Positions 3,169 to 32,366 of a DNA stretch of 64,000 nt are shown in pieces. The notes beneath the pieces were generated by a model, which saw only the letters and a program-made list of their open reading frames with translations, did no database searches and was not told where the DNA came from. Each line of letters begins with the position of its first letter. The first letter of the stretch is position 1. This DNA is from Umbilicaria muhlenbergii (taxonomy: Eukaryota; Ascomycota; Lecanoromycetes; Umbilicariales; Umbilicariaceae). The translations under genes and the position numbers were made by a program. The DNA is taken from NCBI GenBank assembly GCA_000611775.1, contig KK106982.1, positions 1,658,643 through 1,722,642 of the forward strand. Reading direction: 5' to 3'.

Positions 3169-3431
3169 TGTCAGAACTATGCAGATTATGAATCAATGCA
3201 TGTGTTTTAACAGCTGGTATTTAGCTACAGAGAAGAATTCTAATCTAAGAAGCAAAAGGAAGAAAGAGCATGAAGATTAAAGTCTTTATGTGTGTGTTAA
3301 GCTCACTAATCTAAATTGCTGCTAACTCATTCAGTCATTCAGCGCTAACTCATTTGGTCATTCAGTTCAGTACATCATTCAGATCATTCAGATCATTCAG
3401 TTCAGTTCAATGTTTAAGTGTAAACCTGACA
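3169..3431 (-). repeat. 3' LTR of the Ty3/Gypsy element (RIP-mutated copy)
   Basis: Its length of 263 bp is identical to the other LTR. All differences from it are C-to-T or G-to-A in this copy, with no transversion or indel seen, and CpG sites are hit most. The terminal TGTCAG and CTGACA are intact. Confidence 0.9.
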
Positions 3432-6400
3432 TTATCTTCTCCTCTGTTTAATGAGCTTCATGAGCTGATCATTTACTTTTCTGCTTTGTTGTTAATGTAT
3501 TTGATGACTCAGCCGGCTTATTTGAGTACCTTTCATGAAATGCCTCTTTCAGTTCAAGTGAGTGTTCAAACCTGTCAGTGTTGTATCAGGTCTTGTCAGG
3601 TGAGTACTTTTTTCATGTCACTTTATACTGTAATTTGTTTTTTTATCAACAGTTATTGTTAATCTGTTCAACTTCTCATTTCAGTTCAGCCTGTTCAGTT
3701 ATCACTGATGATGACGATGACTCAATTTGTTCAGGCAAAGGATCATTCACAGTGAGTCATAATAAGAAGATGTGAAAGACAGGGTGTATCTTCATTGACT
3801 TAAGCAGTTCAAGCTCATATATTTAAGCTGATATTTTCTTCTTGATTCAAAAAGGTCCTTTATTCTTGTGATTCAGCTTTTTGAACAGGTGAGTCATTCA
3901 AATGTTTTTTGTTGATAATCATATCAAGTCTCTCACTTTATATGCTGAGGTCAGCATTTAAATTCTGTTCATGAAATCTTCTTGCTGAAGTTGTGCTGCT
4001 GTCATGTTGTCTTGTAACATCACATGTAGAGTCTTCATATGATTCATTATGAAATCAGCTTTTTCCTTCAGAATTCATTCTCTTGTCAGCAGCAGAGTGA
4101 TCAATCATTTAAGATTGAAGCTCATTCAAAGGTGATATCCTTTATTCACAAAAAAGGGTAAAACTTTGATGAAGTCAAAATCTGCATTATTGGCTGTGAA
4201 CTCAGTCATTGATAATCATTTAGTTCAGTCATCTTGCTGATAGTTCATGAATGCTTTAAGATAGTGTTTGACATTTGCATTTGCATTTTCAGACTGCCCG
4301 TCTGTCTCTGAATGAAAAGCGGTTGAAGGTTTCAATCTGATTTGAAGTTATTCACAAAGGTGTTTTCACAGTACTGTGATAAATTGTGATCTGCAGTCTG
4401 ATGTTATTGTTTGTGATAACTCATGAAATCTTCATACATTTTAAAGTAATAACTTTGTGATGTATTTCACTGACGTTCCCTCATTCTTATTTATTAAATA
4501 AGAGATATAATGTCTCTTCTTAATCAGTCTGTAAATGATTATCAGGATTGTGTTGAATCCTTTGCTTTCAAATAACCTGATAATCAAGTTAAGTGAAATA
4601 TCTTGTCATGAATGACTTGAAATTGAAAGTGATTTCAGGGCTCCTTGATACTGCTCATTCATGTTCTTTGTTCAGCAGCAGATGTGGCAATTTCAAACAA
4701 AATGACTTATTGTTCAATTCATTCAGGGTCAGTAGTAGAATCATGCAAGCAGTTTCAGAGTCTTTCAGTGTTTTATATGTTTTACTGCCAGCTGTTCATG
4801 AGCTTTCTGAATTAATCATCATCATAATTTGTTCTGATTCAGATCATTATTAATGCCTGAGACTCATACATGTTTCTGATAAAGCAGTCAGCCTGTGTCC
4901 TCAGTGCAGTCACTGAGAGAAATTTTTGTTGAATGTCTTACCCTGATTTGTAATAAGCTTAGAATTTCCTGGCAGAAATCATCTGTTTTCACATAATGAG
5001 TAATCAACTCATTTAAAGTTTCATTCAGGGTTGATTCATTTGAGGCTGATTCATTCAGAGCTGATTTTAAAAAGTGAGGAGCTTTTTCTTCTTGTTTAAT
5101 AATGATGTGTGAGTCTAGGCAGTGACTCAGCAGCATGATTTAAGACTGATATTATAATCACTCATTATTTTCATTCTTCTTTAGTTAATCATCTGAGTGT
5201 TTAATGAGTGTGTTCACTTTTTCATTTTCTTTGCCTGTTCAGTAGGTGATCACAAAGTTAAATTATAAGAGAAATTCAATTCATTTAAATTGAATCTTCT
5301 GTTCCTGCTAGTTCAGCACGTCATTCCTTTAAACTTCAAATGATGATCAACAATTCTTTGTCATAAATCTCATAATTACATTCAGCTGGTATGAGTTTCT
5401 TAGAGAAAAATGTCATTGAATGCATTAATTTTTAATCATCTTTCTGAGATAGTACTCCTGAGAAAATCAGATCAGATGAGTCACATTTAAGATAACATGT
5501 TCAAGTTCAGTCAAAGTGTTGTAATACTGACATGTTAATCAGTCAGTTCTTTAGTTTATTAAACACTTGAAGACATTGTTCAGTTTGCATATTAAAGAGT
5601 ATGTTCTTGCCTGTCAGTTTAATTAAAGATTTTGCAATTTTAGAATATCCTTTTATGAATCATCAGTAAAAGTTACAAAAATCTAAGAATGCCTGCAGCT
5701 GTTTTAAGTTGATCAGTACCTCTTAAGTCTTAATGACTGTGATCTTTTCAAAGTTCACTTGAATGTCATGACGTCTTATGATCAGTCTTAGGTATTGAGT
5801 TTCAGTCTTGTGAAATTCACACTTCTTGATTTCAGCCTGTAAATTTGCCTTCCTCAGTCATTCTAGAATGATTTAAACATGAGTTCAGTGTTCAGACAGA
5901 GACTCTGAATAGATCAGAATATCATTTAAATATGTTGTACAACAGGTGTTCAATAGATTGAATAATATATCATTAATAAAGTGCTGAAAGGTGACTGATT
6001 TGTTAGTGAGTCTGAAAGGCAAGACCTTATATTTGTAGAAATCATGCCTTGTTCAAAAGGTTGTCAGATCTTCAGAATCAGGATTCATTTGTATGCAGTG
6101 AAATGCCTGTTGTATATTAATCTTGATGAAGTATTTTGCCTTTGAAATCTGAGTCAGGGTTTCCTCAATTAAAGGCAATGAGTATCAGTCTTTCTTCATA
6201 ATTGAATTCAGCTTTCAGTAGTTGATGCACAGTCATAAAGACCTGTCTTTCTTTTGTATAAACAGAATCAATGAGGCTACTGATGACTGACTGACTTCAA
6301 TGAAACCCTTTTGCAAGTTGTCTTCTATGTAATTCTTCACCGCTATCAGTTCTTCATGTGACATATTGTAGAGGAGTGTGTATTCAAGCTTTTATTCACT

Positions 6401-8560
6401 CTTTAAAACAATTTTGTGATCATAAAGTCAATGCAGAGGGAGTTCATTTACAGTCTTTTTAAAAAAGACATCAATCAAGTCATGATATTCTGAAGGGAGA
6501 ATCATCTTGATGTTCAGTTCACTTGACTTTAATTCAAGGTTCAATGCTTCCTCAATCTGTTGAATAAAGATAACAAAGATTTTGTTGTCTTCCTTCATAT
6601 TCAATGTGAACAGTGCTGCGTCAATCATCTTGATATTAACTGCATGTGAGGGGCTATTACCCTTTGATGCAGAGGCTGATTCAGGATCAACTTTTGTAAT
6701 GAATTTCTTCAGGATCTGATAAGGTTTTCATGATTCAGTTCAGTCATTTGATTCAGGTTCAATCACTCAGTTTGTTTGTTTATTCAGTGTGCAGTTGTTC
6801 AGGTTTGTTCATTCATTCAGTTCAGTTCATTTGTTCAGTTCAGTTTGTTCATTTGATTTCATTTGTTCATTCAGTGGGAAAACCACTACTCAGTTCACAG
6901 GGTTGATTAAAATTCAGGTGTGATTCATTCAAAGTAATCTCAATATAATGCTGAGATCTTTCATGTCTATGATCATCATGAGAGTGAGTCACTGAGAATG
7001 ACCGCAGACCTTCATAATTGAATAAATCACATGTGTAACTCATTTCATAATCTTCTTTTGAAAATCATGTAGAGTTCAGGGCTTTGGCAATGATACTGCC
7101 TCAATTTCAGATCATTCAATCAGAGTCTTTGCCAGGTTAACATTAATGAATGCATATTCAGTTGACTCAGTATCAAGTAGAGCCTTGGCTCATAGCTTGA
7201 CCTCATTCAGTGTGAGCTTGCAATTCACTTTGAATGATGTTCAGGTGAACAGAACATCTTCATTGATCATTAATGTTGATATCACAAGAGAATTATCATC
7301 ATTCTCTATCATGACTTTGATAAAAGAACGCCTTTTCCTGAATCTGATTCAAAATTGAAGTCAGAGTTGAATATGATTCATTGCACATGTCTTAATGTTG
7401 AAGTCTCTTTCTTTTTGTCCTTGTTTAAATAATTTAAGGCAAGGTGTCTCTGTTCATTATATTTAAAACATCATCCTTCCTTCATTTGTTGTTCTTTGAC
7501 GACGTCTGAGTGTGATGTTCAGTTCAGTGTTCAGGGGACTGACTCAGTGACTGTTCAGGTAGTTGATTTTAAGGTCTCAATAAAACATTCAGTTCTTGTA
7601 TGAGTTTAACTTGTGAAGGAGGATATCTGATTCAGTTTGATGATCTTCTTTACATCAAGCAGTCATAAAGTCTGATTGATTCACTGACAGCGCTTGATGA
7701 GTTCATAAAGGTCTTTAAGTCTGTCATCATCAGTATTTAATTGTTGTTGAATGATGCTGTTTACCTTGTTCAGAAGTTCTCCTATTCAGTATAAATTAAG
7801 AAACTCATTCAGTTCAGCAACATATCACTGAAAATCAGCTCAGAAGGACAGGAAGTCTTTGAATTCTTAATAAAGCTTGCAGAATTCATCAGTGATGATA
7901 TGTTTTCAGTCTGAGTCTCTGTAGATTCAGGTCAAGTGTTCTAGCAGTTCAGTAATGTTTAAATAAGCTGTTCAGGATGCTGAATTCATTCAAGGCCTTA
8001 TGTGTTTGGCAGGGTCACCCTCAACTCTTGTTTTCACATATGTTATTTTCATCTGTTCAGTGAGGTATCATTCATTCATTGTTAGTAGGTAGTTTCTGAT
8101 CTTCATTACTCATTCATCATATTTTGAATGATCACTGAAGAACATCAGTGAATCAGGGAGCTTTAATAATCTGAATGATCCTTCAATTGTGAGTTGAGGG
8201 AAATCAGGTCAGGGGGTGCTTGTGGCTGTGATTCTTTGTTCAAGGTATGTTATCACATCAGCTTGTTCAGTGACTTTCTTCTTCAGTTCTCTGTTCTTGT
8301 CTTTCATTCTTTCATATTTCACTTGTAGTTCTTCGTGTGCCTTTATAACGGTGTCAATTTCATTCAAAGACTGCTCATGATTGGTGATCAGTTGTTGAAG
8401 AGCAGTCATTGCTTCAGAGGGATGTTCTTGTAAGAGATTGATCAGGGTCTCTGCAGTCAGGGCTGTCAGGATCTGATTGATCAGGTTTTCATTCAGGGTG
8501 AATTGTTCATCATTCACAGAGGTCAACAACGACTCTCTGATTCATGGGTAGACTTCGCTA

Positions 8561-8989
<429 letters not shown>

Positions 8990-13627: not shown

Positions 13628-15280
13628 CCTCAACGCTAGCTTAGGCTTTCAGCGGTACCTTGTCCCGGCACGGCTTTAATCGTACCCATGGGTCCTTAGG
13701 CCAAAAACGAAATTTCCGCGAAGGCGATCCAACAAAGCTTTCACCCACCAAACGCGAGTGGGAAACTACTTCTTTTATTCAGGCTGGAGATCGCTCCGAA
13801 GAACCATCACAAGCCAATACTTTTCTTTCAAATCCAATTCATAAGCTTACTGGCTGCTGGTTGGTGCGCTTTACTGTGAGACATTACTTGTTATGTTGCA
13901 TATAGGCGTGTCGGCTATCGCAATCACAACGGTCGCATGTCATAGTTTAGGCAGGCGGCAGGCCGGGACCTTTATAGTTACGCTGTTATTCCCACATTAT
14001 TTCTCTGTAACTTTATAAGTTTGTAATATTAGCGATGAAGATAACGATGCCTGTGTACACTGTGAAGGATTCACGTCGTATTTTGAATGAGGCGGAGTAT
14101 CGCTTCTCGTTACCGTGGGTCTTCGAGACTTGAACACTGATGATCACTGTCCTTCCTAAGGGGGTCCATACAATGACACTCCAGCTTCTTGCTTGAACAC
14201 CCCCAAAATTGTATGTTTAGATATATTCCTGGATCAAACTACCAATCCGCTCGCCGCGCGCGCACCTTATTCTAACCCCTTATGCCACAAGGCTTGATCA
14301 TCAAAGATTGCTAATGAAGGCGCGGGTTAGAAGTAGTCAAGTGGTTAAGTGATCAGATGTTAGGTGGCAAAAGTGTTAGTAAGAAATTCTGGGGAAAAAA
14401 GAAAGGGCGAATGAATAACAAGTCTTGATGAATGAGTGGCGATATATACTTAGGGTAGATCATTCATACTTGCTGAAGCAGAGGTAGAATATTCATTACT
14501 TAGTATTTACTGGGTATATAATCCATTCGCTCAGAAATTTATTTACGTGGAGGAGGGTGCCCATTGTAGGCGGTAATATGTATATTCCTAAGGATGACGT
14601 GTTACCGAAATAGCCAATTGGCACCGCCTTAGACCAGGACCAGCACCATGGAATAAGGTGGAGGTGTCTTTGCACGAGGGCCCCGAGTAAGCGACCGCAA
14701 GCCTTCTGGACCGGCAGATTTGGCCGGCAGCCTTGTTGTACTGGCAGTCTGGATCGAGAACATCCACAATCTCCCAGAACAGCCCCCACCCCGCCGGTTT
14801 CAGCTCCCAATGATGCTGCTCCTTAAGATACTTCCAACACGCACGAATCTTACTCCGCCATCCGGCACCTCGCCCCCAAATATGGCGGGGCAGTGAACTT
14901 TGCGCTGCGCTCATGAAGATGGAGCGCCACCAACATCTAACTAAGGTACCTGCGGGGCGAAGCCGCCACCAGTCTTAAATTTGCGACGAAACCTCGGCCC
15001 TCTCATCTGCGTTTCTGGATGTTGGTATCTGCTTCACGTCTTCTCTTCATTCTTTGACTGCGATCCTTCGTTCACGCTCTTTCAAGGCTTTGCGTCTGTG
15101 TTCAGTCACGTTTGCTGGCTACAAGCGCCGCAGTATTGATCCGAGCTGCTCCTGTTTGTCCATTCTTAAGACGTTCTCTGATTCATCTGGGCGAGGCTTC
15201 AGAATTCAAGCCGGAGCTGCATGCATCTCGACATTGACTACAACCCATAAGCGTCTAAAAAGAGTCCACCAAAGCCAGTT
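13628..15280. other. 1.65-kb region without a supported gene
   Basis: Several short frames exist, including overlapping minus-strand frames at 14496-14914 that contain Trp/Cys-rich stretches, but none has a recognisable domain or convincing splice structure. A small hairpin (CATACAAT ... ATTGTATG) lies near 14,170-14,220. The last ~250 bp is the promoter/5' leader of the next gene. Confidence 0.4.
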
Positions 15281-16266
15281 ATGTCGTTAACCGCGAGTAC
15301 CAGTCCGTCGATAGTGTCATCGACAAACATCGGACCTATGATCACTCCACTGACATTCCCTGCTGATTGCACCACAAATCTCTACAACATGCACACGCCT
15401 GGATTCGGTGTGCCCCAATGGACATATTGGACACAGGGGTGTGCCATCGCCTCTTGCTGCCCGTCGAGCAGCTTCTACACCACCGCCTGGGCTTGGTATT
15501 CGAGCTACTACAGCCCAGCCGTGTGCCCCGTTGGATACCAGACATGCTCGGCGGCAGACATCATTCGTCCGAAGCCCAGTGAGACAGTGGCTTGGTGTGT
15601 GCTAAAGTAAGTCGTACATCCTCCGATTGACAGATCTAGTACTGACAAGCGTCCAGTGCTTATTCCTGCCCTCCCACTACAGTTGCATCACCTTATTACA
15701 ATGTTTTCCCCCAAGATACATCCTTCCCAATTGCCAGCGCCGTTGTGGTAGACAACATCTTCAACCAGACCAGTCTCAGCAGCACAACTATTACCCAGTT
15801 CTACAATATAGCGTATCCGTTGCAGATACGGTGGAAAGCTGGCGATTTTGACAATACGACAACCATCACTGCAGGCACCGCTGCGGGCACGACTGGAACA
15901 ACAGGGTCATCCCACATAACAAGCGTCACAGCTACCAGTGTACCATCTGCCGCAGCTTCCGCAGGCCCGAGCTCTAAAGGCCTTTCGACGGGTAGCATAG
16001 CTGCAATAGCGGTGGTCGCGGCAATCGTTATAATAGTTGCGCTACTGGGTTTCTTTGTGTGGTGGAAGCGACGTCATAGTCCGGCCCATGGAGGGAAGAT
16101 ATCGAATGATCCGTCCATCGATGATAAGAAATATGCGAATGTCGGGGAGCTCGAAACTTCAGCAAATATACCCGAACTCGGAGGACGGCATAGACAGGCT
16201 ATAGCAGAGCTTGGCGAACCAGATAGAGCGGAGCTGGGGGGGCTTGGGAGGTCGGAACCGGAGTGA
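15281..16266 (+). CDS. Single-pass Cys-rich surface protein with ELGG tail
   Basis: One intron (15607-15656, GTAAGT...GTCCAG) joins two exons into a 311-residue protein. There is no strong signal peptide at the first ATG. The N-terminal half carries paired cysteines (GCAIASCCPSSSF, CPVGYQTC, CVL/NAYSCPP) and aromatic residues, followed by a Ser/Thr/Gly-rich stalk. One membrane helix follows (IAAIAVVAAIVIIVALLGFF) with WWKRRH at its inner edge, then a cytoplasmic tail of about 65 residues with repeated ELGG/AELG motifs. The layout is that of fungal cell-wall sensor-like type I proteins. A sensor role is inference. Two proteins at 53.6 and 59.8 kb share this architecture. Confidence 0.75.
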
Positions 16267-17132
16267 ACTTAATAATGATCAAAGATGGTATGAGTTCAGG
16301 CCTGAGGTGGATGGTTTTTTAGGTAGGGGGTTCCCCTTACTGGTCTCGTTCAGAGGACGGCCAACGCCGCGTAAACTAAATTCAACGTCACGGATGGTTT
16401 CCTACACTTTACAACTTGAGGGCCCTCTTGTATAAGTCATTGTGTTCCTCCGCAATATTTCTCTGGCTCTGTTCAGTTATTGACAAAGAGATTTCAAGAC
16501 TCAACTGATGACCATCTACTGTCTCTAGTTGTTGATCAACAACTTTAGTCACCTTGATCGACTGAAATATATGTCTTCAGAGCCTATGAACAACATAGCT
16601 GACAGCCTTTAGCTGAGACTCTGCTTGCAAAATACCAATGCAAGTGGTTCTTGAGGTGTATGTCATATGATAAAAACCTAAACCCCTAATAGGCACCGTC
16701 AGCTGTCTTATAAACAGGACCGCCCTTTTGCCACTGCCATCTATCTTGATCCTACTCCTGTCTCTCTATCCATAACTTATGATAGGTTCTCTCACATATG
16801 CAGTCTACATCGGCGACCAAAGTAACGATATCATTGTCACTATACCTGGCCTCGATTGACCCAACCCCAGTTGCCTCCGAATGCCCATAATATCCATATA
16901 AGGTTGGGCACTCTCCGCAAGACCCTCCGGCCCCTCTTGGCTGCTAGCTTTGTTCGCCTCTTCTGAAATGCTGAACAATTCAGCCAAAGTCCCATCCACT
17001 CTCCAATGCCAAGTGAACAAACGCCAGCACATGAACTATGCGACCAGAGCGCTGTTGTCTTTACAAACCTCGACCTTTCAGCCTAGTAAATAGTAGAAAA
17101 TGTGAGAGCTAGTAGTAGGCTCATGAACTACG
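16267..17132. other. Intergenic region
   Basis: No gene could be supported. A minus-strand frame at 16805-17032 is open but resembles nothing I know and has no splice partners. Confidence 0.4.
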
Positions 17133-18640
17133 TTACTCTACCGTAACCGCCTTCGTTAGATTCCTTCTCCTGACCAGCAATGATATGAAACCGCAATGCG
17201 TCAGCTTTGTAATCGATGACCTGACCACGTTGACAATATCGACAGCAAGATCTCCGCGCTCTAGACAATACGGAAGCGCGATGAAAGAAGCGGCCGTGTC
17301 GCCAGACTGGGAGAAGAAGATGCGGGTATCATTGCGCAAGATTGGAGGCTGCCGATTCACAAAATCGGAAGCCAGTTCGACCGTGATGGGCATATCGATG
17401 ATTCCCTTGAAGGTGTCTCTGACCGCCATACGAGAACGATAGCCGGTGCCACAGGCAATGGATATGATTCTTCAGCAACGGCGGATAGTGCTGAGGTATT
17501 GTTCCAAGCCACCAAGCGTGACTGTGTTATTAGCGACGTCGAGGCGGCCCCCGCATGGTACTCACAACTGAGTGCGGCTGTTCTAAGATCTCTTTCTGCA
17601 CAAAGTGCTCGAATTCACCATTTATGATTAGCTGAAGTTCCAACTCCAGGGTTTGGATGGCGCGGATTTTCGATTGCCCACTCTCGTTCGAGACGCGGTG
17701 GATATTCAACAGCCCTCGTGGATGTAGGCTATTGTCATCCTCGAGTTAGAGAACTTTCTTCGTGTGCTCGACGAATGCGGAGGGTTCGGAAGATAGGAAA
17801 TATTCACTGGCGCCGGAATCTTTGCGGCGAAATGCACGCCTATTAGAAGGGGCAAATGCCGTATTGGGCTTATTCTCGAGAGCAACATTCGTGAGTTTCT
17901 AGATGACCTGGTCAGCGAAAACAGTGACCTCGTCGGTGTGCTCTACGTCGACAAAGTCAACCATTTACCTGCTGAAGGTCCAGACCCAAGGACTAATGGT
18001 GAACCTTGACGAGCAGCGACAATAACATGCGGATAATGAGTAGATTTGATGAGAAGACTAAACGACCCTTCGAGCTCCTTGATGACTGCCTTGGCAAGTG
18101 GCACGAACTGGATCTGGGGTTGTTCATCGTGTAAAGTATTTGAGGAGCTCCGTAATGCCCTCGGTATCGGCGTCGGTTTAAGATTTGTGTCCTTTGGCTT
18201 CTAGGAGAGTTGTTAATTCTATGTACTTAGTGATAGTTCTATTGTGTACAACAGAGGACCCCCAATTTAGATATGAGCGGTGCGATTGGCAATTCCTGCG
18301 GGGGCGCTTGCGATGAGTGGCCCAGCGAGTGAGAGCAATTCCAGCGTGCGAATCGAACATCATAGCGAAATCTGCTATGAATTCTCCGATGAGACTCTCC
18401 AGTTTGGACACCTTGCCGACCTCTTTAAAAGCAAGGATATTTTTATTCCCGTCGCCATCGATAGCGAGGCTAGCGGAGTCATAACCATGGTATTCAAGCC
18501 GTGCAAGGCCTGATGACGTGAAATATCAGCAATCTTTTTCTCCAAGAGAACGATCGAACTATTTTACCTTTAACAAGTATGTCAAGTATGTACTTCCTAT
18601 TCCTCTCCTCAAGGTGGTTTGTATAATCGAAAATGCCACT
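17133..18640 (-). pseudogene. GFA1-like glucosamine-6-P synthase relic
   Basis: GFA1 (glutamine:fructose-6-phosphate amidotransferase) makes glucosamine-6-P, the first step to UDP-GlcNAc and chitin. On the minus strand, fragments follow the enzyme's order: SGIFDYTNHLEERNRKYILD (glutaminase start), intron near 18516-18567, GLARLEYHGYDSASLAIDGD, HAGIALTRWATH, VVHNRTITKYIEL, ELEGSF/LLIKSTHYPH, FVEHTKK/IAYIHEG, QKEILEQPHSV, LGGLEQYLSTIRR, CGTGYRSRMAVRD and MPITVELASDF...FFSQSGDT (first SIS domain). After LTHCG the sequence jumps to RNLTKAVTVE and stop, the family's exact C terminus, so most of the second isomerase half is missing. At least five breaks occur, including TAA at 18178-18180 and shifts downstream. 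The Met-Cys start is not visible. It is a dead, presumably duplicated gene, since GFA1 is normally essential. Confidence 0.8.
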
Positions 18641-19239
18641 AAAACGGATGTCAGCCGAGTACCTTGTAGAAAGTGGGCAGGGCAGTCGTGTCAGCTAGTT
18701 TTATGCATGGGATCTACTACTTGGCGAAAGGACTGTTGCAGACAGCGAAAAACGACGATGATATCAACTTCCGTCGAAAAGTACCAGGCCTTAGGAACTC
18801 GTAAACAACAAGACCCCGATGAAAGCTCCTCAAGCCGACGATGATGAGATTTGAGAACAACCGTGTATTATACTGAGACAGTGAGCGCCATCAAAAAGCA
18901 CTCTCGACATCCTTCCGATACATATCGAATTTAATGAGAACGATATAGATATTTGCGGTCGTGCCATGGGGAACTCCTCAAATAGTCCAGCCACGATGAA
19001 ATGTGTGAGACAGCTGGTCCGAGTATAGCCTCACCGTTTTCTGGAAGGCTAGTGGTCTGTCTAGCTAAGAAGTGACTTGACAGAGGGTGAATGGACGAAG
19101 GAAAGAATAGACGCCACTATATTAATGGTACCTCGGTCCGGGCTATGAGACTTCGCCCCGTGTATGCTGCCATGGTACTTACCACTCGTGACCGTAAACG
19201 ATCATACGATGGACTGTTTCAGGGTCCTGTTGCGTTTCT
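18641..19239. other. Region between GFA1 and GH16 relics
   Basis: This is presumed upstream sequence of the GFA1-like relic and downstream sequence of the GH16-like relic. No separate gene was recognised. Short plus-strand frames (for example 18518-18844) look like chance. Confidence 0.4.
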
Positions 19240-20160
19240 TAGGCTCCGAACAAGTGCATTTTTGTCCCTAGGCAATGTCGAATGGGGGCGCATATCTGGG
19301 ACGGCTTGGAATCGCAGAAGACTCCGCAAGTGGAAGTGGAGATTCCAAAGCTAAAGTGCTCCTAAGCCAAGTAACGAATAAGTTTCGAGTTTTGGTACCA
19401 ATGGATAAGTTCGGATGTCCAATCAAATCATACGCTCTTGGTACTGTGTGGAAGGGATCCTGAGTTCTTCCACTATGGTCGCGCCGAGTATGGCATTACC
19501 GCTAGGATCCGTCGCTGTGGAAGGTGTGTTAGACATATTATATGATCAACGTAATGAAGAAGGGGAACTCACTTGGCTGTGTAGTATAGTGGACTGCGGT
19601 GTCATTCTCCTTACCGAGCATCTCAATGTCTATTTCATTCGAATCATCCTATCGGGCGGGGGTCAGCTTCATCACCCATACGTTCAGATGAAAGACAACT
19701 TGCCTTGTAGAAAAATGATCCTAAAACAGTCCCTCGTTGAGCAGCTCGTTGGGAAAGTCCCACTTGGATACCACTCGAAAAGATCCGTGCAGATATCTGA
19801 TCGCTGAGTTATGATTTCTGCAGCATCCACAGTCTGTGTCATCGCACCATTCAGAGGGTATGCCACTTGTCTTAATTTCAACGCACCCTTCTCGATCCAG
19901 ACATTTGCATCGTTATGAAACAGATTGTACGGGGCACTCCGGGTCGCTGGCCGTGTCGAGTTTATGACGGTCCAGGATTGGTTGAATACTGGAGAATCTT
20001 CGTTGAGCGACTCAGCGTCGGCGTAGGTGCTGAAGTCATTGGAAATGAAGTGAGTGTAAAAGTCCCCTGTCTCCTGCAACTTATATCCACATTCGCATGA
20101 TGCCTCTACTCGTAATTGATCTGAAAGTGACAGAACGGCAACAAAAGTTGCTATGAGCAT
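19240..20160 (-). pseudogene. GH16/ConA-like secreted protein relic
   Basis: The minus-strand frame from 20160 begins with a signal peptide (MLIATFVAVLSLSDQLRVEA), then CECGYKLQETGDFYTHFIS, a start typical of fungal GH16-like/ConA-fold secreted proteins. Next come NVWIEKGALKLRQ and DAAEI. The frame then shifts by one to read QISARIFSSGIQ and LGSFFY. A GC-AG intron (19649-19703, donor AAG|GCAAGT) leads to DDSNEIDIEMLGK, the family's E-I-D-I-E catalytic-region motif, and VHYTT. A second intron follows, then FDWTSELIHWY in another frame. At least three lesions make it a pseudogene unless the assembly is wrong. Its place between GFA1-like and dehydrogenase relics suggests glycan processing within one locus. 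Confidence 0.68.
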
Positions 20161-20783
20161 GTTGATAGATCAAGGAACGAAAATCGTGTCTTACTCGCAG
20201 CGTACGAATGGATTTCCAGGATATGCATTTATCGTTGACGAGAAAGTAGCCGGGAAAGCAGTCAATTATTCAACGAGCACGCATCAGATACATAAAGCGA
20301 TTTAAAAAAAAAGATATACAATGCGGTATCAAATTGATGCTCGGCGTAGAAAGCCATTCATGCTCGGCGGTGACGAACACACAGTGGCAAATACCGAAAA
20401 CAGCCCAATTTCGAGGAATGCCACGTATTCAAATAGCCAAAACATCTTTTGACGCCAAGGTAGTGCAAGTATCTCAGGTTGGTACACATTCTGGCGGGTG
20501 GTGGCGCACCGTCAATCTCCGATGTCTCCATGCAATCCCGGCACACGCTGACCGGACGACAAGGCATACCATACAATCACTCGATTATGGGGCCCAGTTC
20601 AGAGCAGTGGTCAATGTTTCCGTTCAATGAAGTAAGTGTCAATTGTACTCTACTTACAACCAAGCCAGGAAGTGGCAAGGCAAGTACTACGGGCGTGGCT
20701 TCATCAGAGTATGGAGAGCCGTAGGTTCTATCCGCGGGCAGAAGGCGCCGAAACGGCGCAGCTATAAGAGAAAGGGGATTAGT
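20161..20783. other. Intergenic between GH16 relic and dehydrogenase
   Basis: The stretch is about 620 bp and contains the upstream region of the GH16-like relic. Open plus-strand frames at 20334-20724 show no recognised motif. Confidence 0.4.
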
Positions 20784-22084
20784 CTAAATCCCTGCCAAGT
20801 CCATCACTAGAGCCAATTGCGCCATAGCGCCTGTAACCTTAAACCCACGACAGGCTGAGTCAACCGAAGACATCTCTTGCTTCCCTTTCCTCAACAAAAC
20901 CAAGAAATCAGAAGCAGACCAGAACCACGTCACTTTAGCCCGCTGCACCTTTTCCAAAACGCTGAAGTCAACTCTTGACTGCTTGACACAAACAACAATG
21001 GCGTCGAACTCCGTATCAATGGACTTCGCGTTGAAGGCGTTGGATCATATTTCCTCATCCATCGGACCCTCTTCTGCTCAACCAAGGGGTCATAGTACGC
21101 CAGGTGCTTGCATCCTAGCTCCTTTAGTGTCGCGCAAAACTGTAATCCCGGGGAATAGGAGATGACGCCTTGGCCTGCCTTGAAACCAAGGCCAATAACT
21201 AGAATCTGAGGTAAGTGATTCTTGTTCTTGATCAACTGCTGGGCGAGAAATTTGCGCGCAATCTTCTTCGGTCTGTTCCACATCCTTGTGGTTGCCATCC
21301 TCAACAAAGGTAACGTGTTGTTGGCCATGAGGTAGTATGGATTAGTGGGGATACAGTGGCCACCGATTCCAAGCCCAGGGCGGAAATTTTGGAATCTGAA
21401 AGGTTTTGTTGCTGCTGCGTCTATAACTTCGTTCACGTTTATTTGCTGTTTTTGGCAGGCGTCCGCGAGCTCATTGACATAGGCGATGTTGATCGTCCTG
21501 TAGCAATTTTCGTACAGTTTCGTCATTTCCGCAACCTCAGGTTGTGAAACTAAGACTACCTGCTGAAATACCTGCAAGTAAATACCCTTGATGGACTCGA
21601 GAGATTCGTCATCCAATCCCGAAATGACCTTGGGTATTTCGCCCGCGGATGGTACCGTCCGGCTCGGATCGACACGTTCAGGCGACATGCCACAACGGAA
21701 TTTCTTGAGGTAGGGACCGAGAAGGGAGCGAGTCATCCCAACAGACACACTGCTCTCAATCACAATAGTACTATCATGTCTGGCATAGGCAACTACCGTT
21801 TCGATGGTTTTGACCAAATGTGTTGTGTCAACCGTCTTGTCGTCCGTGAGGAGGGTAGGTACCGAGATCAGGTAATGCGTCCCTTTCAACAACATGTTTT
21901 TGTCTGACGTGAGTTGGACCTTTGGAAGAGCCTTGAAGTTTTCTTGAAGCGTTTCGATTCGTTCGACAGAGATATCGAATCCAATGAAGGAGAAAACGGA
22001 GCCGAACTCGCTGAGCAAAATCTCGCCGACTTATCCAACGCCAATGACACAAACGACGACAGACTCGTCAGGTGGTGTCAACAT
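20784..22084 (-). pseudogene. UDP-HexNAc/UDP-sugar 6-dehydrogenase, broken
   Basis: This belongs to the WecC/WbpA-like UDP-N-acetylhexosamine or UDP-glucose dehydrogenase family, which oxidises a UDP-sugar to its uronic acid using NAD. From MLTPPDES at 22084 the protein reads VVVCVIGVG, then TAA at 22031-22033 replaces the Tyr of the Rossmann G-V-G-Y-V-G, then EILLSEFGSVFSFIGFDIS. Next come HYLISVPTLL, VIESSVSVG, GMSPERVDPS, PEVAEMTKLYENCYR, FRPGLGIGGHCIPTNPYY (catalytic Cys kept) and the C-terminal domain ILVIGLGFK. A frameshift near 21,010-21,040 leads to EFDAIVVCVKQSRVDFSVLE, and the frame ends at TAG 20784-20786. Only these two lesions were seen, so inactivation is recent or one may be an assembly error. 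It diverges from the GT2 gene. Confidence 0.85.
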
Positions 22085-23426
22085 TCCGCTGTCTAGTTCA
22101 TGGAGTTGGTGGGCCTTCGTCGCTGCCTGTATCGCACTATTATTTCAGATCATGTCAGCTGCAGGCCAAACTCCTTGGCTAGGTGCATTTATACCTAAGT
22201 ACGCCCTTGTCTTCACCTTCTCCTTGCTCGTTCTGAACGATTTGAAGTTGGTCAAGTACAGTTCGAAGGCTTTGCCTCCTTGTAAGGTGTGAGTGTGAAT
22301 GCATTCTAAGCCGTAATCTCGGTCGTGGACGAGTGTGGGAAGCAGTGAATGAGGGGTACTGGAAGGATATTGGATCGAGACGAGGTCTACGATGATTTAC
22401 TTAAGTAAACCATCTCGTGCGATTCGAGACATCTCCCTTTGTACCGCAAACGGGCTCACATCGGCTGTATCTCAAGTTCTTTGGGAAATTCTTACTGCAC
22501 GTGTGGCAAGCGAAGTTGCTGGTCCGATTTGGCTGCTTTAGGACATAGATCGTGGTACAGCTGAGCCGACACTGAGGCGAATCGACAGTCTCGAATGCTT
22601 GGCAAACGTATCCTGGTTGGCTGGTCTACTGGGAACTTTCGAGCAGCAATAGCCGGGCTTTACAAGCTATATCCTCGGGTGTTAGTGGTAGACGTTTAAA
22701 ATGTCCGCCTTTGCTTTGGAGGGAATGGGGCCACCCCGCATGCCTTACAGAGGACGTGTTACTGCATCTTGAGCGATGTTCATATGTATTTCGACCACAC
22801 AGAACGCTTTCTCCTTGGATCTTTTCATCATTCACACGACCATTAACTCCATTCTTGCTATAGCCACGAGACGATATCTTTGTTGAGACCTCTACAGCCC
22901 TAGCACGCATGTCTACCGATCAAGCAAACGACGTCTGGGGAAAGTATTGTGTCATACACGGCCATTTCTATAGAAAATTCGCGTGGATAGGATGTCAGCG
23001 CCCCTCTTTATTCATACTCCAGTACCAGAACTACCACGCAAGCCTGAAGTCGAATATCGTAGGAGAGCTAGCTTTATTCGCAGATTGAGCTTCAGTCGAG
23101 CTAGCCTCGGTCGATCACGCACGACTGATGCTGTGCCAACGATACGGGCTCGATCTACATCCCATGCCGGCCATGCTGGTGACCACGAACGGCCTCAACG
23201 GCCGGAGACATCTCCTCATCGATGATGGCCGACTTTTTCATCCAGGGCGAGCTTCGGTCGGCTGGATACATTACATGCTATAACGTCAACTCGAGCACTG
23301 TCGGCGTCATATGCTACTCATAACAGCTCTGGGGTGAAACGGCAGAGGCCAGCAACCGCTTGAGCCTCGCACAGTTTTTCCCATAGTTTCAGTCGGCTCC
23401 GTACGCAAAGCACTCCAGGGAACTCC
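22085..23426. other. Intergenic between divergent dehydrogenase and GT2 relics
   Basis: It probably holds the shared promoter region. A plus-strand frame at 22983-23225 (basic, Arg/Ser-rich, with RRRASFIRRLSFSRASLGRS) could be the N-terminal exon of the GT2 gene but cannot be joined with confidence. Confidence 0.35.
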
Positions 23427-25771
23427 GGCGGAATTACTAGACAGCATAGATGAGCTAGTTTGGTGTCATCTCTTTCCTTCTACATGGCTAAAAAGTCAAG
23501 TATCTCTTTGAGACCCGAACTTCCAATCTTACGGTCCGATATTACGGAGGATGCCGTTCGAGAATTTATGACTGACGTTGAAACGCGACAGAAGGGCCTG
23601 AGATAAACAAAATTATTCAACAAGTCCTTTGAGGTAGTGTGAAGGTTCTTCACTATATGCTTGATATATTTCTTACTTGAGGGATATCCCTTATGGGATG
23701 GCTTAGTCTATGTTTTACGGTACGCATCACATGTCAAATATTGTTGGTGCGTGTCTGAGGAACCTCAGCTTACCGACCTTAGGAAGTTGTTCCATGACCA
23801 TACATCATTTACATTCATTTCAGTTATATTTCTATGTTGGGGTGCTGTCATCGCATTTATCGCTCCAGTCTTCACCCAATTTGAGATGGAAGTTGATGAT
23901 CCCGAAGCCCGTGACGCTTCTGATACGGCTTTCATCATTCCTGCATACAAAGCTGCCGGCGCACTCGCGAGACAATTATGCATGCGAAGAAGATATTCAG
24001 GGGCGACCAAATCTTCATCATCGCCAACGGCAACTCCTCAACGCCGCTCGACAACACCGCCGAGGTTTGCGCTGAGCACGGTGTTAACCACATGAGGGTC
24101 TCAATCGGTAGCAAGCTCCTTGCCGAATTTGTCGGCGTGGCGTTGGCCAAAGACTACAAGTACGTTATGTTGATTGACCACGACGTTCATCTACCGGCGA
24201 ATCTTCCCATCGGGACCAATCGGATGAACGACACGGTCAAATGCATTGGGTACTCCATCAAGAGTACAGGGCCCAACGGCGCGCTGGGTACAGTCATCCA
24301 ACAAGCGCAGGACGTGGAATACAAGTTATCTGGCCTTGGCAGAACCTTCATGGGGAAATATGGAAGTGCCACTTTCCCACATGGCGCAATATGTCTTTGG
24401 GATCAGGAAGTGTTGCAGCATCTGTTTTGGAACCACCAAGGGTTTACAATCTCTGAAGACTGGTACTTCGGACATACTTGTCGTGTAAGTCTCTACCCGC
24501 TAGCTAATATGTAAGAGTGTCGGACAGAAGTCATGAATAGAGGGAGATTTTGACACCGCAAGACTCCGCGAAAATCCACTGCCAGGCGTATGGACAAAAT
24601 GCAACTGACAATCGTCAGCTAGGTCCCCTCAACCACTTGACAGAATTTGAGGAATGGTTGGATTCCTTCAGGAGTGTAGATAACACTGCATCACTTTCAC
24701 TTTAACAATATAAAAAGGGGCCTTAGCTGGAGACTGTCATTATTTTGTTCATACGCCCGCTGGCTGTTTCCCTCGATTCATGACTTATGACTAATACTCT
24801 TACCAGATAAATGATAAGTTGCTAACAAATCATAGTCTGCTGGCTATTGAATCCAGTTCTGCTACCAAGTGTTTGTCGAAACCGAAACGCCACCCTCCAT
24901 CCTCATCGCCCAGAAGTCCACCCGCGGTGGCTACGGTGAAATGACCATTTCCAAACAACGCTTCTACCGCTGGAATTTTTCTACCTCTACCGAGTGCGTG
25001 ACAACCTCTACTACCTTCTCCTCGCCTAGCGCCTAGGCCGCTACGAAATCGTCACTAAATTCTTCATCTTCTGCGAAATCTACAACAACATGACCTACGT
25101 TCTCCGCGTCCTCGTCTACCCCATCAGCCTAATGGCCAACCTGAAAACAGCAATGATCTTCACCGCCGCCCTCCTCGCCGTCTATGTCGTCGTTTTCATC
25201 TTCTTCAATAGCGTGCACCTGCGCCGCAAAAAGGAAATGGTAGCCTGGAAAATCCTCCCCGTCTACTTCGGCATGAAATTCTGCCTCATGTTCGTCAACA
25301 CTGCCTCCATTTACTACGCCATGTGCGCTTATGCCAAATACTTTGCCGTCCTTCATCCGCGCGTAACCGAGAACCACGTCGCCCTAACCGCAGTGCGGAA
25401 ATGCCTGCTCGACCAGAACGAGAAAGATTTTGCCATGAGATATATGAGTATTGCCGAGGAAGACGATGGCATGGACGTATAGACACTTCAGCCGGAGCTG
25501 GTGGTGTTCCGCTCGATCTAGTCCCGGGAAGCGGATTGGACTGGAAACATACGGAGAGAATGAACAAGGCAGCAAAGTATTGCTCCTGATGCGGATGTTA
25601 GGCCTATCAGGCCGGCGTTGGCGGTACTACAGCCGGCTCAGGAGCCGGTTCAGCGGTTTCATCAACCACCAGATCAGCAGCCTGATGAGGAGCCGCCTCG
25701 ACGGCCAGCGCAACGGCCACAGGAACGTGCGCTTAGTAGCTCATTTGATGACCTTGATTTTGGGTTTTAGA
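23427..25771 (+). pseudogene. Hyaluronan-synthase-like GT2 polysaccharide synthase, broken
   Basis: A membrane glycosyltransferase of family 2 (processive type; fungal CPS1/ZtGT2-like by recall). Pieces in order: DELVWCHLFPSTW, ILRSDITEDAVREFM, KLFNKSFE|GYPLWDGLVYVLR|KLFHDHTSFTFIS (two short introns), a membrane segment, DTAFIIPAYKA, VMLIDHDVHLP (D-x-D), SEDWYFGHTCR (E-D acceptor motif), an intron of about 350 bp from 24,486, QVFVETETPP, KQRFYRWNF (R-x-x-R-W), then membrane helices and a Pro/Gln-rich tail ending DDLDFGF. Lesions: TAA 23604-23606; frameshifts near 23,964, 24,976-24,980 (five T where six are expected) and 25,590; TAG 25026-25028. It pairs divergently with the dehydrogenase, which would supply the uronic acid donor. 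Confidence 0.8.
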
Positions 25772-26305
25772 TATCCACATCCTACAACTAAACTGTTCAA
25801 AATCCGATCCGGATTGCTTTCATGATAGGTAATGACCGGATACCATGAGATTTCAGAAGCAGTTTATATAAGTGGATAAAGCGCCCATAGGGAGCACGCT
25901 TAGAGAGCCCCCCATAGGCAATGCATGTACGGAAGTAGGGGGCGTTATAAAGCGCACGGTCCCTATACTGGACTTTTATTCCCGTACCTTCAGCTGGGCG
26001 GCCGCGGGTTTTTGGCCTTGGCGGCGGTAGCGAATATTCACCACGTACCACCCGACACTGGTTGAGTCAGTTAGCCAGACCACGTCCTCCGGCATCAGAG
26101 TAAAACGACGACCGTATCAGTCCATGCTAGAAACCCGAGTAATATTTGTCCCCTCAGGTCAGACTTACAGGCAAGTCTCCTGGAAGCCAAGAAAAATACG
26201 TAAGCGAACGCCACACGCACGCCACATATTCCATCCAACCTACCTTACCTGGAACAGCCCACTACACCAGCTCGATCCCCAGACAACCCCTCTCCCTCTA
26301 CCACG
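25772..26305. other. Intergenic GT2 relic to ECM15
   Basis: The stretch is about 530 bp. It contains no supported gene and includes the ECM15-like promoter. Confidence 0.5.
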
Positions 26306-26894
26306 ATGTCCCAACCCCCACCCGACCCTTCCACCCTCGCGACGCCGCCCTCCTGCGTCGCAGACTTCTGCCTAATCCCCGTACGCCCCTCCTTCCCACC
26401 GCCCCACCCCCACTAACGCCCACCCACTTCCAGCTAGGCACGCCCACGGCGTCCGTATCACAGCAAGTAGCAGACGTGCAGCGACTGCTGCGAAAGAGCG
26501 GGTTGACGTACTCGATGCATTCGGCTGGGACTACTGTTGGTGCGCTCTCAACCCTTTCTGTCGTTCCGAAATCCATTCGTTGAGGGTAGGGTTCAACATT
26601 TACATAAGAGCTAACAGGGCATGGTATGGCGCGAGGCAGAAGGGTCATGGGAGGCGGTGATGCGACTGATAGGGCAAGCACACACGCTGTTGCATGAGAA
26701 GGGGATAGTGCGAATACAGACGGATATAAGGGTGGGGTCGAGGTAGGTGGTTGATCGAACGACTATTGCGAGTGTATTTATGGAGAGGGGTATACTAATG
26801 ATGGATGGGTGGGTGTAGGACGGACAAGAAGCAGTCGTTTAGTGAGAAGGTTACTGCGGTTGAGAAGCTGCTGGCGGCGGATAAGGAGTCATGA
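26306..26894 (+). CDS. ECM15: UPF0045/ECM15-like thiamine-binding protein
   Basis: Three introns (26381-26433, 26540-26639, 26743-26818, with CACTAAC and TACTAAT branch sites) join four exons into a 119-residue protein. It has [12 protein letters not shown] at the start of the fold, [38 protein letters not shown] and [12 protein letters not shown]-type strands ([12 protein letters not shown] here), ending [15 protein letters not shown]. This is the small ferredoxin-like MTH1187/YkoF-type fold that binds thiamine or related ligands in yeast Ecm15 and archaeal homologues. It is likely cytosolic. Length matches the family (about 100-120). It ends 182 bp from the convergent PLC-like gene. Confidence 0.85.
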
Positions 26895-31654: not shown

Positions 31655-32366
31655 TCACCTCCCCCCCACCACCCTCCCACATATCCTCCAGCCCCGACCA
31701 TCCCTCTCCCCTCTCCAAACCTCAAACGCCGCCTCCCCGTACCCATACGCATCCATAAAATCCCTCAACGCGACCAGCGCCGCCCCGAGCACCCCCCAAG
31801 TCATCTGATGATTCGCCGCGTTCCTGACATCCAGACGCGGGCCCCCGGCCACCATTTGCACGGTGTATTCGCCGCCGCGGACGGGGCCGTCGCGGCCGTG
31901 GCGGATGTTGAGCAGGACTTGGGCGAGGCCGATGCTGACGACGTCGCGGACGGTGGGGCCGGGGATGAGGCGTGTGAGCTGGATCATTATGGAGGTGTGG
32001 GTGGAGGGGGCGTGCCAGGTTATTAGGGCGGGGTTGCCGCGGGGGGGGTGGGNNNNNNNNNNNNNNNNNNNNNNNNNNNNNNNNNNNNNNNNNNNNNNNN
32101 NNGGGGGGGTGGGGGGTTGGGATGCGGCGGGGAAGGGGGCTGGTGGTGGGGGGAGAGGGGTGTTAGGGGTCTGGGTGGTGGAAATGAGGAAGGGGATGGG
32201 GGGGTGGTGGGGCGACTTACGTTGCGGGTATGGTGTGGGGGGCGTTGGCGCAGGATTGGGTGCGGGGGTGCAGTTGGGAGGGGGGGCGCGGGGTGGTGGG
32301 GATGGCTATGCTTAGAGTAGCGAGGTGGAGGAGGGATAGGAGGATGGTGGGATAGTGCGGGCGCAT
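31655..32366 (-). CDS. Small secreted protein interrupted by a sequence gap
   Basis: The first exon (32221-32366) opens with a signal peptide, MRPHYPTILLSLLHLATLSI, and a donor GTAAGT at 32215-32220. A 50-N gap (32053-32102) lies just downstream, inside the second exon or near its start. After the gap the frame reads GNPALITWHAP, SIMIQLTRLIPGPTVRDVVS, VRGGEYTVQMVAGG, RNAANHQMTWGVLGAALVAL, YGYGEAAFEVWRGE and stops at 31655. The body is similar to the protein starting at 63400 (NANNHQVTIMTLQLAL, YNYGVAEFDIFDG), so the two are paralogues. Function is unknown. The C-rich coding strand around the gap probably caused the assembly break. Confidence 0.72.
32053..32102. other. Assembly gap (50 N)
   Basis: Exactly 50 N flanked by G-runs on the plus strand. 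It interrupts the secreted-protein gene. The true length is unknown because 50 looks like a placeholder. Confidence 0.98.

Follow-up and report, generated by a model that had tools for sequence, protein, structure and literature searches.

In hyaluronan synthase systems, a membrane type 2 glycosyltransferase (GT2) is paired with a partner UDP-glucose dehydrogenase. The closest published kind of system to the locus described here, a group of four linked and broken genes in a 64,000-nucleotide stretch of DNA (the window) from the fungus Umbilicaria muhlenbergii, is, as far as the available parts of the literature go, the cluster of some fungi and algal viruses in which a gene for UDP-N-acetylglucosamine (UDP-GlcNAc) 6-dehydrogenase (UNGD) is located beside a chitin-synthase-like (CHSL) GT2, with one of two clades of such clusters also possessing a polysaccharide deacetylase (PMC4059230; PMC5122149, available in part). 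A like arrangement is described for Trichoderma, where the UNGD-linked CHS8 is homologous to hyaluronan synthases (PMC7053769, in the portion available). To judge from these excerpts, the U. muhlenbergii locus has in common with the CHSL and CHS8 clusters a UDP-N-acetylhexosamine (UDP-HexNAc) dehydrogenase beside a GT2 in a fungal genome, the former being proposed to feed the latter, but it differs in a GT2 that carries PF13641 and PF13632 and matches no chitin synthase model, in the additional presence of a GFA1 paralogue and a probable GH16 gene, and in that everything is dead here. With the hyaluronan synthase systems it shares the membrane GT2 with a partner sugar-nucleotide dehydrogenase, which is, however, of the UDP-HexNAc class and not a UDP-glucose dehydrogenase.

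Counterparts of single components have also been described. gfaB of Aspergillus niger, an example of a second GFA1 in a fungus, is treated, in the accessible text of the sources, as a chitin-precursor and cell-wall-stress gene (PMC7761569; PMC7389268); as there, a second glutamine-fructose-6-phosphate transaminase paralogue exists beside the housekeeping one in U. muhlenbergii, but in the form of three relics, none of them intact. The fungal type 2 glycosyltransferases ZtGT2, FgGT2 and MoGT2, discussed in connection with the extracellular matrix (PMC5653360; PMC6731526, partial texts), can be likened to the GT2 reported here by description only; they are described as widely conserved in ascomycetes, and the term 'gene cluster' is absent from the available portion of the text (PMC5653360). 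A fungal cluster of these four genes did not appear in the titles and abstract beginnings found, among which few subscription papers were covered.

The window represents C2:1658643-1722642 of a 34,788,950-base genome in seven contigs, with a gene content of fungal type (a HET-domain gene, GH47 and a six-exon GFA1). We consider its four broken genes to be, with rather more confidence than doubt, the remains of a small fungal cluster whose product would have been an acidic, extracellular amino-sugar polymer, and which died by ordinary mutation.

Results

The gene order of the locus is a membrane-protein gene (plus strand, apparently alive), GFA1 (minus), GH16 (minus), dehydrogenase (minus) and GT2 (plus), the last four of which are each broken (Table 1). 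A previous inspection of the letters and open reading frames (the sequence-only reading) had described four linked genes, all decayed, and stops or frameshifts were indeed located in each of the four relics, so that the decay is confirmed as real. When all six frames of 16600-26498 were compared with Pfam (stops replaced by X, E up to 0.01), the SIS domain of GFA1, two GT2 domains and three dehydrogenase domains, two over cut-off and one under it, were detected, but no others and no polysaccharide deacetylase. Stop-free frames of at least 250 residues number 12 in 26.6-64 kb (3.2 per 10 kb), and one each in 16.3-26.6 kb and 9.0-16.3 kb, a distribution which speaks against a local sequencing fault; a given 362-codon frame would lack a stop by chance with a p of about 3e-8.

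The intact GFA1 of the genome, for which a check elsewhere had been suggested, is found on contig C3 with six exons and 695 amino acids (aa). The window relic corresponds to its residues 3-481 with 61.5% aa identity over 465 codons, lacking the last 214 residues as well as the housekeeping introns at residues 11 and 102.7, and shows an additional 10-residue gap. PF01380 (SIS) is over cut-off, and the relic belongs to the GFA1/GlmS group. The aligner reports four stops and seven frameshifts, a frameshift count that varies with alignment penalties and is reduced to six once 58 extra bases at 18567-18510 (GTAAAA...GCTGAT...CATCAG) are removed; with donor-, branch-point- and acceptor-like ends, these are probably an intron of the relic's own that the housekeeping GFA1 does not have. 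In the 465 codons, the relic and the intact GFA1 differ at 124 first, 74 second and 280 third positions (27, 16 and 60%; p 3e-32), a skew which indicates that most divergence arose while the paralogue was still protein-coding. As the sequence-only reading had it, a separate GFA1 paralogue is thus part of the locus, and it is a formerly real gene, long under constraint before its death. A retrocopy origin of the paralogue is disfavoured by its own probable intron and by an intron kept in a second relic on contig C4, where a 54-base insert (GTACGT...GCAG) at residue 567 coincides with an intron site of the housekeeping GFA1.

With its N-terminal and central domains over cut-off (PF03721, 40 bits; PF00984, 84.6 bits), the dehydrogenase relic belongs to the UDP-glucose/GDP-mannose dehydrogenase superfamily; TIGR03026 reaches 221.6 bits versus a cut-off of 189.8, and the C-terminal PF03720 with 21.3 bits stays below its cut-off of 30. 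Three models for UDP-N-acetylmannosamine (UDP-ManNAc) or UDP-GlcNAc dehydrogenases score 127.5, 111.4 and 105.1 bits, about twice as much as three UDP-glucose dehydrogenase models (65.2, 49.5 and 42.4 bits), with no equivalog cut-off reached. Among solved chains, an archaeal UDP-ManNAcA dehydrogenase and Cap5O come closest (4r16 and 3ojl rank first). By profile and structure matches, the relic is therefore assigned to the UDP-HexNAc 6-dehydrogenase class (UNGD/UNMD), in agreement with the type previously read from its motifs. A TAA at 22033-22031 falls inside the NAD-binding GxGxxG motif, which a protein from a downstream start would consequently not contain, and a C-terminal frameshift is located near 21045. 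A genome search at E up to 0.001 found no second UDP-HexNAc-type dehydrogenase; PF00984 occurs at two places, the window relic and a UDP-glucose-dehydrogenase-like gene on contig C6, whose matched stretches are without stops. The best identity in genome contigs is 39% (24 loci from 58 candidate stretches, with search patterns drawn from one sequence) and that to plasmids at most 34% among the best 15 of 695 records; with identities of at most 39%, a recent bacterial transfer is not visible.

The GT2 domain of the fourth gene is over cut-off in a 178-aa open piece (PF13641, 39.9 bits; PF13632, 37.2 bits), and the motifs SEDW and QRFYRW, the latter one residue longer than the classical QxxRW, were recognized by eye. 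Frameshifts are located near 23975 and 24990 and a stop at 25027, whereas a stop at 24848 is avoidable by a later splice acceptor, so that one or two stops are present; 24485-24835 is probably an intron. Neither chitin synthase domain (PF03142 or PF01644) was detected in the six-frame scan, and by Pfam the GT2 is not a chitin synthase. Among solved structures, which presumably comprise hyaluronan synthase chains, the 178-aa piece matched two lectin chains only (E 0.04 and 0.15) and no hyaluronan synthase at E up to 1. A search of the genome with the GT2 piece (E up to 0.001) gave no further copy, the nearest paralogue showing a best E of 0.17 among 14 other GT2 loci tested, equivalent to 12 places (the profile search returned 18 rows including repeats and the relic; two rows were left out of this comparison). 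Plasmid or viral relatives of the GT2 did not appear in the scans made, and three viral scans for algal-virus relatives also gave none, a weak result with patterns from one sequence. No domain is recognizable in the approximately 1.3 kb at 22300-23650 between the dehydrogenase and GT2 relics, where the N-terminus of the GT2, in decayed form, or a fifth gene, now lost, may be located. The open stretch with two hydrophobic segments that precedes this interval is possibly a remnant of the GT2 N-terminus or of a small membrane protein.

The remaining relic is broken as previously claimed, its identity as a secreted GH16 protein being probable only. Frameshifts near 19790 and near 19745 disrupt it, and GTVLGSFFYK at 19733-19704 and the GH16-type EIDIE motif at 19636-19622, the reading NEIDIEML representing an ExDxE-type motif, are in different frames. 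The N-terminus looks secreted as judged by eye, the EIDIE exon is flanked by possible introns on either side, the first with a GC donor, and two TAGs, out of frame or within a possible splice acceptor, were not counted as stops. PF00722 scores 14.3 bits, below the cut-off of 22. A 158-aa frame, which ends in an out-of-frame tail and was used in the genome, family and PDB searches, retrieved 27 PDB sequences, xylanases and fusions, at E 0.05 or worse; within the genome it revealed no second GH16 piece (E up to 0.001). Structure predictions for the GT2 and GH16 pieces on their own had mean pLDDT values of 34.9 and 37.8 and were disregarded.

An unexpected part of the finding are two further dead copies of parts of the GFA1-GH16 half. 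A scan for the SIS domain led to the second GFA1 relic on contig C4, and a DNA search with the tail of the membrane-protein gene to both C4 and contig C1. The C4 piece comprises GFA1 residues 387-694 with two stops and five frameshifts, the C1 piece residues 591-694 with one stop and three frameshifts; both adjoin the membrane-protein gene (C1) or its tail (C4) in convergent orientation as in the window, and the fragments are colinear with the window, each with large deletions. On C4, 109 bases match the window GH16 piece (score 36, with no more than 19 reached in 500 shuffles). A single frame there contains KWDF and GTVVERFFYK, which are separated by a TGA. The stretch upstream of the GH16 start is shared with C1 (score 85 versus at most 18 in 200 shuffles) and weakly with C4 (23 versus 16), and places one edge of the duplicated block at 20703, some 190 bases away from the dehydrogenase relic. 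As the two other copies in the genome carry only parts of it, the GFA1-GH16 half is an old neighbourhood.

The boundary of the block is marked by the membrane-protein gene, for which no Pfam match over cut-off was obtained. It shows 71% DNA identity to C1:9399173-9397842 over 1362 aligned bases. Exon A differs at 6, 2 and 38 codon positions 1, 2 and 3 in 108 codons (92.6% protein identity) and is strongly constrained; exon B differs at 36, 35 and 74 in 163 codons (63% protein identity). Neither stop nor frameshift interrupts the exons in the window or on C1, where the gene appears to be alive at both places, and only the tail, with one frameshift, is present on C4.

Codon-position differences between the C4 and C1 pieces of GFA1 are even (20, 20 and 23 in 99 codons, p 0.87), which suggests that these copies parted after constraint had ended, and hence that this copying took place at or after the death of the paralogue; window and C4 differ at 23, 26 and 39 positions in 94 codons (p 0.085), all these counts being small. 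One apparent one-base loss near codon 666, seen by eye, may be shared by C4 and C1. The remaining lesions in their 99 common codons are not shared (608 and 619 in C4; 624, 657 and 685 in C1, with another base near 669), and no lesion is common to window and C4 in the 94 shared GFA1 codons or in the GH16 piece, where the window has its frameshift at a site at which C4 has one base more and C4 has a TGA of its own. These points argue against a shared death, and the window and C4 copies may have died apart. Three independent losses of three working copies are nevertheless not the default explanation, considering the codon-even C4-C1 differences and the possible shared one-base loss.

Table 1. Positions in the window of the four relics and of adjoining features
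Feature	Position	Strand	Basis
GFA1-paralogue relic (glutamine--fructose-6-phosphate transaminase)	17167..18637	-	SIS domain; frameshift-aware alignment to the genome's own intact GFA1
Probable GH16 relic (ConA-like secreted glycoside hydrolase)	19450..20160 (approximate)	-	Frames; PF00722 E 0.029; C4 trace
Nucleotide-sugar dehydrogenase relic, UDP-HexNAc class	20890..22084 (3' end approximate)	-	Profile and structure matches, frames
GT2 relic (processive-type glycosyltransferase)	23661..25482 (approximate; 5' end uncertain)	+	PF13641, PF13632, frames
Stop-free stretch between the dehydrogenase and GT2 relics, with two hydrophobic segments	22062..22292	+	No family match above cut-off
Sequence in common with C1, upstream of the GH16 start	20272..20703	.	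62-71% DNA identity to C1:9396899-9396513
Cys- and Ser/Thr-rich single-pass membrane-protein gene, apparently living	14918..16267	+	Two open exons, 15281-15610 and 15745-16266

Outside the locus, the window contains a decayed Ty3-type long terminal repeat (LTR) retrotransposon at 3169-8989 on the minus strand, with 263-base direct end repeats that are 86% identical and with reverse transcriptase, RNase H and integrase pieces across two frames, but no open reading frame of at least 150 aa; the element is AT-rich without indices of repeat-induced point mutation (RIP). An assembly gap, a run of 50 N, is located at 32053-32102. Elsewhere in the genome, two contigs each carry a copy of a 4.8-kb stretch that includes an open PF13641 glycosyltransferase frame (C1:1483508-1488344 and C2:4082502-4077640; 96.8% identity, 2685 bases 100% identical) amid other shared repeats, which is either a recent copy or an assembly effect.

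Discussion

Broken frames can have causes other than gene death. Some of the lesion signal in fact derives from probable introns, namely one GFA1 frameshift, two GH16 stops and possibly one GT2 stop, but the GFA1 relic still has four stops and six frameshifts and has lost its end, no intron could be fitted in at the dehydrogenase stop or the GT2 frameshifts, open frames of up to 875 codons persist in the flanking genes, and the pieces on C4 and C1 are likewise broken. Introns as the sole cause account for some of the signal and not for the rest, and a living cluster obscured by sequencing or assembly errors or by introns taken for lesions is most improbable. Even less credible is inactivation by RIP: the decayed Ty3-type element at 3.2-9.0 kb and AT-rich DNA are 8 kb away, but the composite RIP index lies below zero in each of the 32 two-kb bins as well as in all four genes, which contradicts this mechanism, and 11 of the 17 or 18 counted lesions are frameshifts, which RIP does not produce. 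The four genes have been inactivated by ordinary mutation, not by RIP.

As components of one pathway, the four gene products would complement each other. The extra GFA1 would have raised glucosamine-6-phosphate and thereby UDP-GlcNAc; the dehydrogenase would have oxidized UDP-GlcNAc, or an epimer, to a UDP-HexNAc-uronate; the membrane GT2 may have linked one or both sugar nucleotides into a chain and pushed it out; and the secreted GH16 protein could have trimmed or remodelled the chain. Parts of the GFA1-GH16 half together with the membrane-protein gene would then have been copied to two other contigs, where the relics are dead too. The joint working of the four genes and the identity of the polymer are inferred from adjacency and substrate logic, on which also the tie between the GFA1-GH16 half and the dehydrogenase-GT2 half depends. 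Several observations weigh against a single unit. The GH16 assignment is under the Pfam cut-off and its trace on C4 is short, the product of the GT2 cannot be told from its sequence, and no convincing trace of dehydrogenase or GT2 is present on C4 or C1, where the GT2 search gave one match (E 0.70) and matches to E 2.5e-4, with composition correction off, fell in non-coding frames. The four-gene unit may thus be two neighbouring pairs, an old GFA1-GH16-membrane-protein neighbourhood that would have spread as a segmental duplication, and an unrelated dehydrogenase-GT2 polymer pair which died beside it. In accordance with this alternative, the block shared with C1 extends from the membrane gene up to 20703, where it ends, C4 shares part of it, and the dehydrogenase, whose 3' end is at about 20890, is without a copy elsewhere. 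On the other hand, the very sugar nucleotide on which a UDP-HexNAc dehydrogenase acts is the one that GFA1 feeds, all four genes are dead in one place, and the large deletions on C4 and C1 make absence there weak evidence, so that we regard two unrelated dead pairs as unlikely, though deserving serious attention.

Regarding the product, the sequence-only reading had suggested a hyaluronan-like polymer made by a hyaluronan-synthase-like GT2. Neither designation is supported, as the dehydrogenase of the cluster belongs to the HexNAc class and not to the UDP-glucose class required for hyaluronan, and the structure matches of the GT2 do not point to a hyaluronan synthase. Hyaluronan or a close polymer of GlcNAc and glucuronic acid (GlcA) would require UDP-GlcA from elsewhere, for which the apparently intact UDP-glucose dehydrogenase on C6 could serve, and a GT2 and a GlcNAc-supplying GFA1 are at hand; UNGD-linked CHS8 moreover has hyaluronan synthase homology (PMC7053769, in the portion available). 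Weighed against the class of the clustered enzyme and the failure of the 178-aa piece to match a hyaluronan synthase, such a product is very unlikely, and a HexNAc-uronate polymer fits better. A still more specific proposal can be advanced only tentatively, that of a distinct fungal pathway for a polymer of GlcNAc and/or its 6-uronate, with a non-chitin GT2 and its own GFA1 and GH16, parallel to the UNGD-chitin-synthase cluster, which was lost and partly copied to two contigs around or after its death.

The cluster is real and dead, and U. muhlenbergii appears to have lost the trait; that this trait was an acidic amino-sugar polymer is plausible. To judge from the available parts of the literature, acidic amino-sugar polymers of fungi are hardly known, and few published clusters pair a sugar-nucleotide dehydrogenase with a GT2. 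As remnants of a dead cluster can be scattered over several sites in a genome, counting each of them as a separate loss would mislead. Should living relatives carry the four genes together, these would constitute a ready target for a new fungal matrix or capsule polymer, and the U. muhlenbergii genome would represent a natural loss-of-function case.

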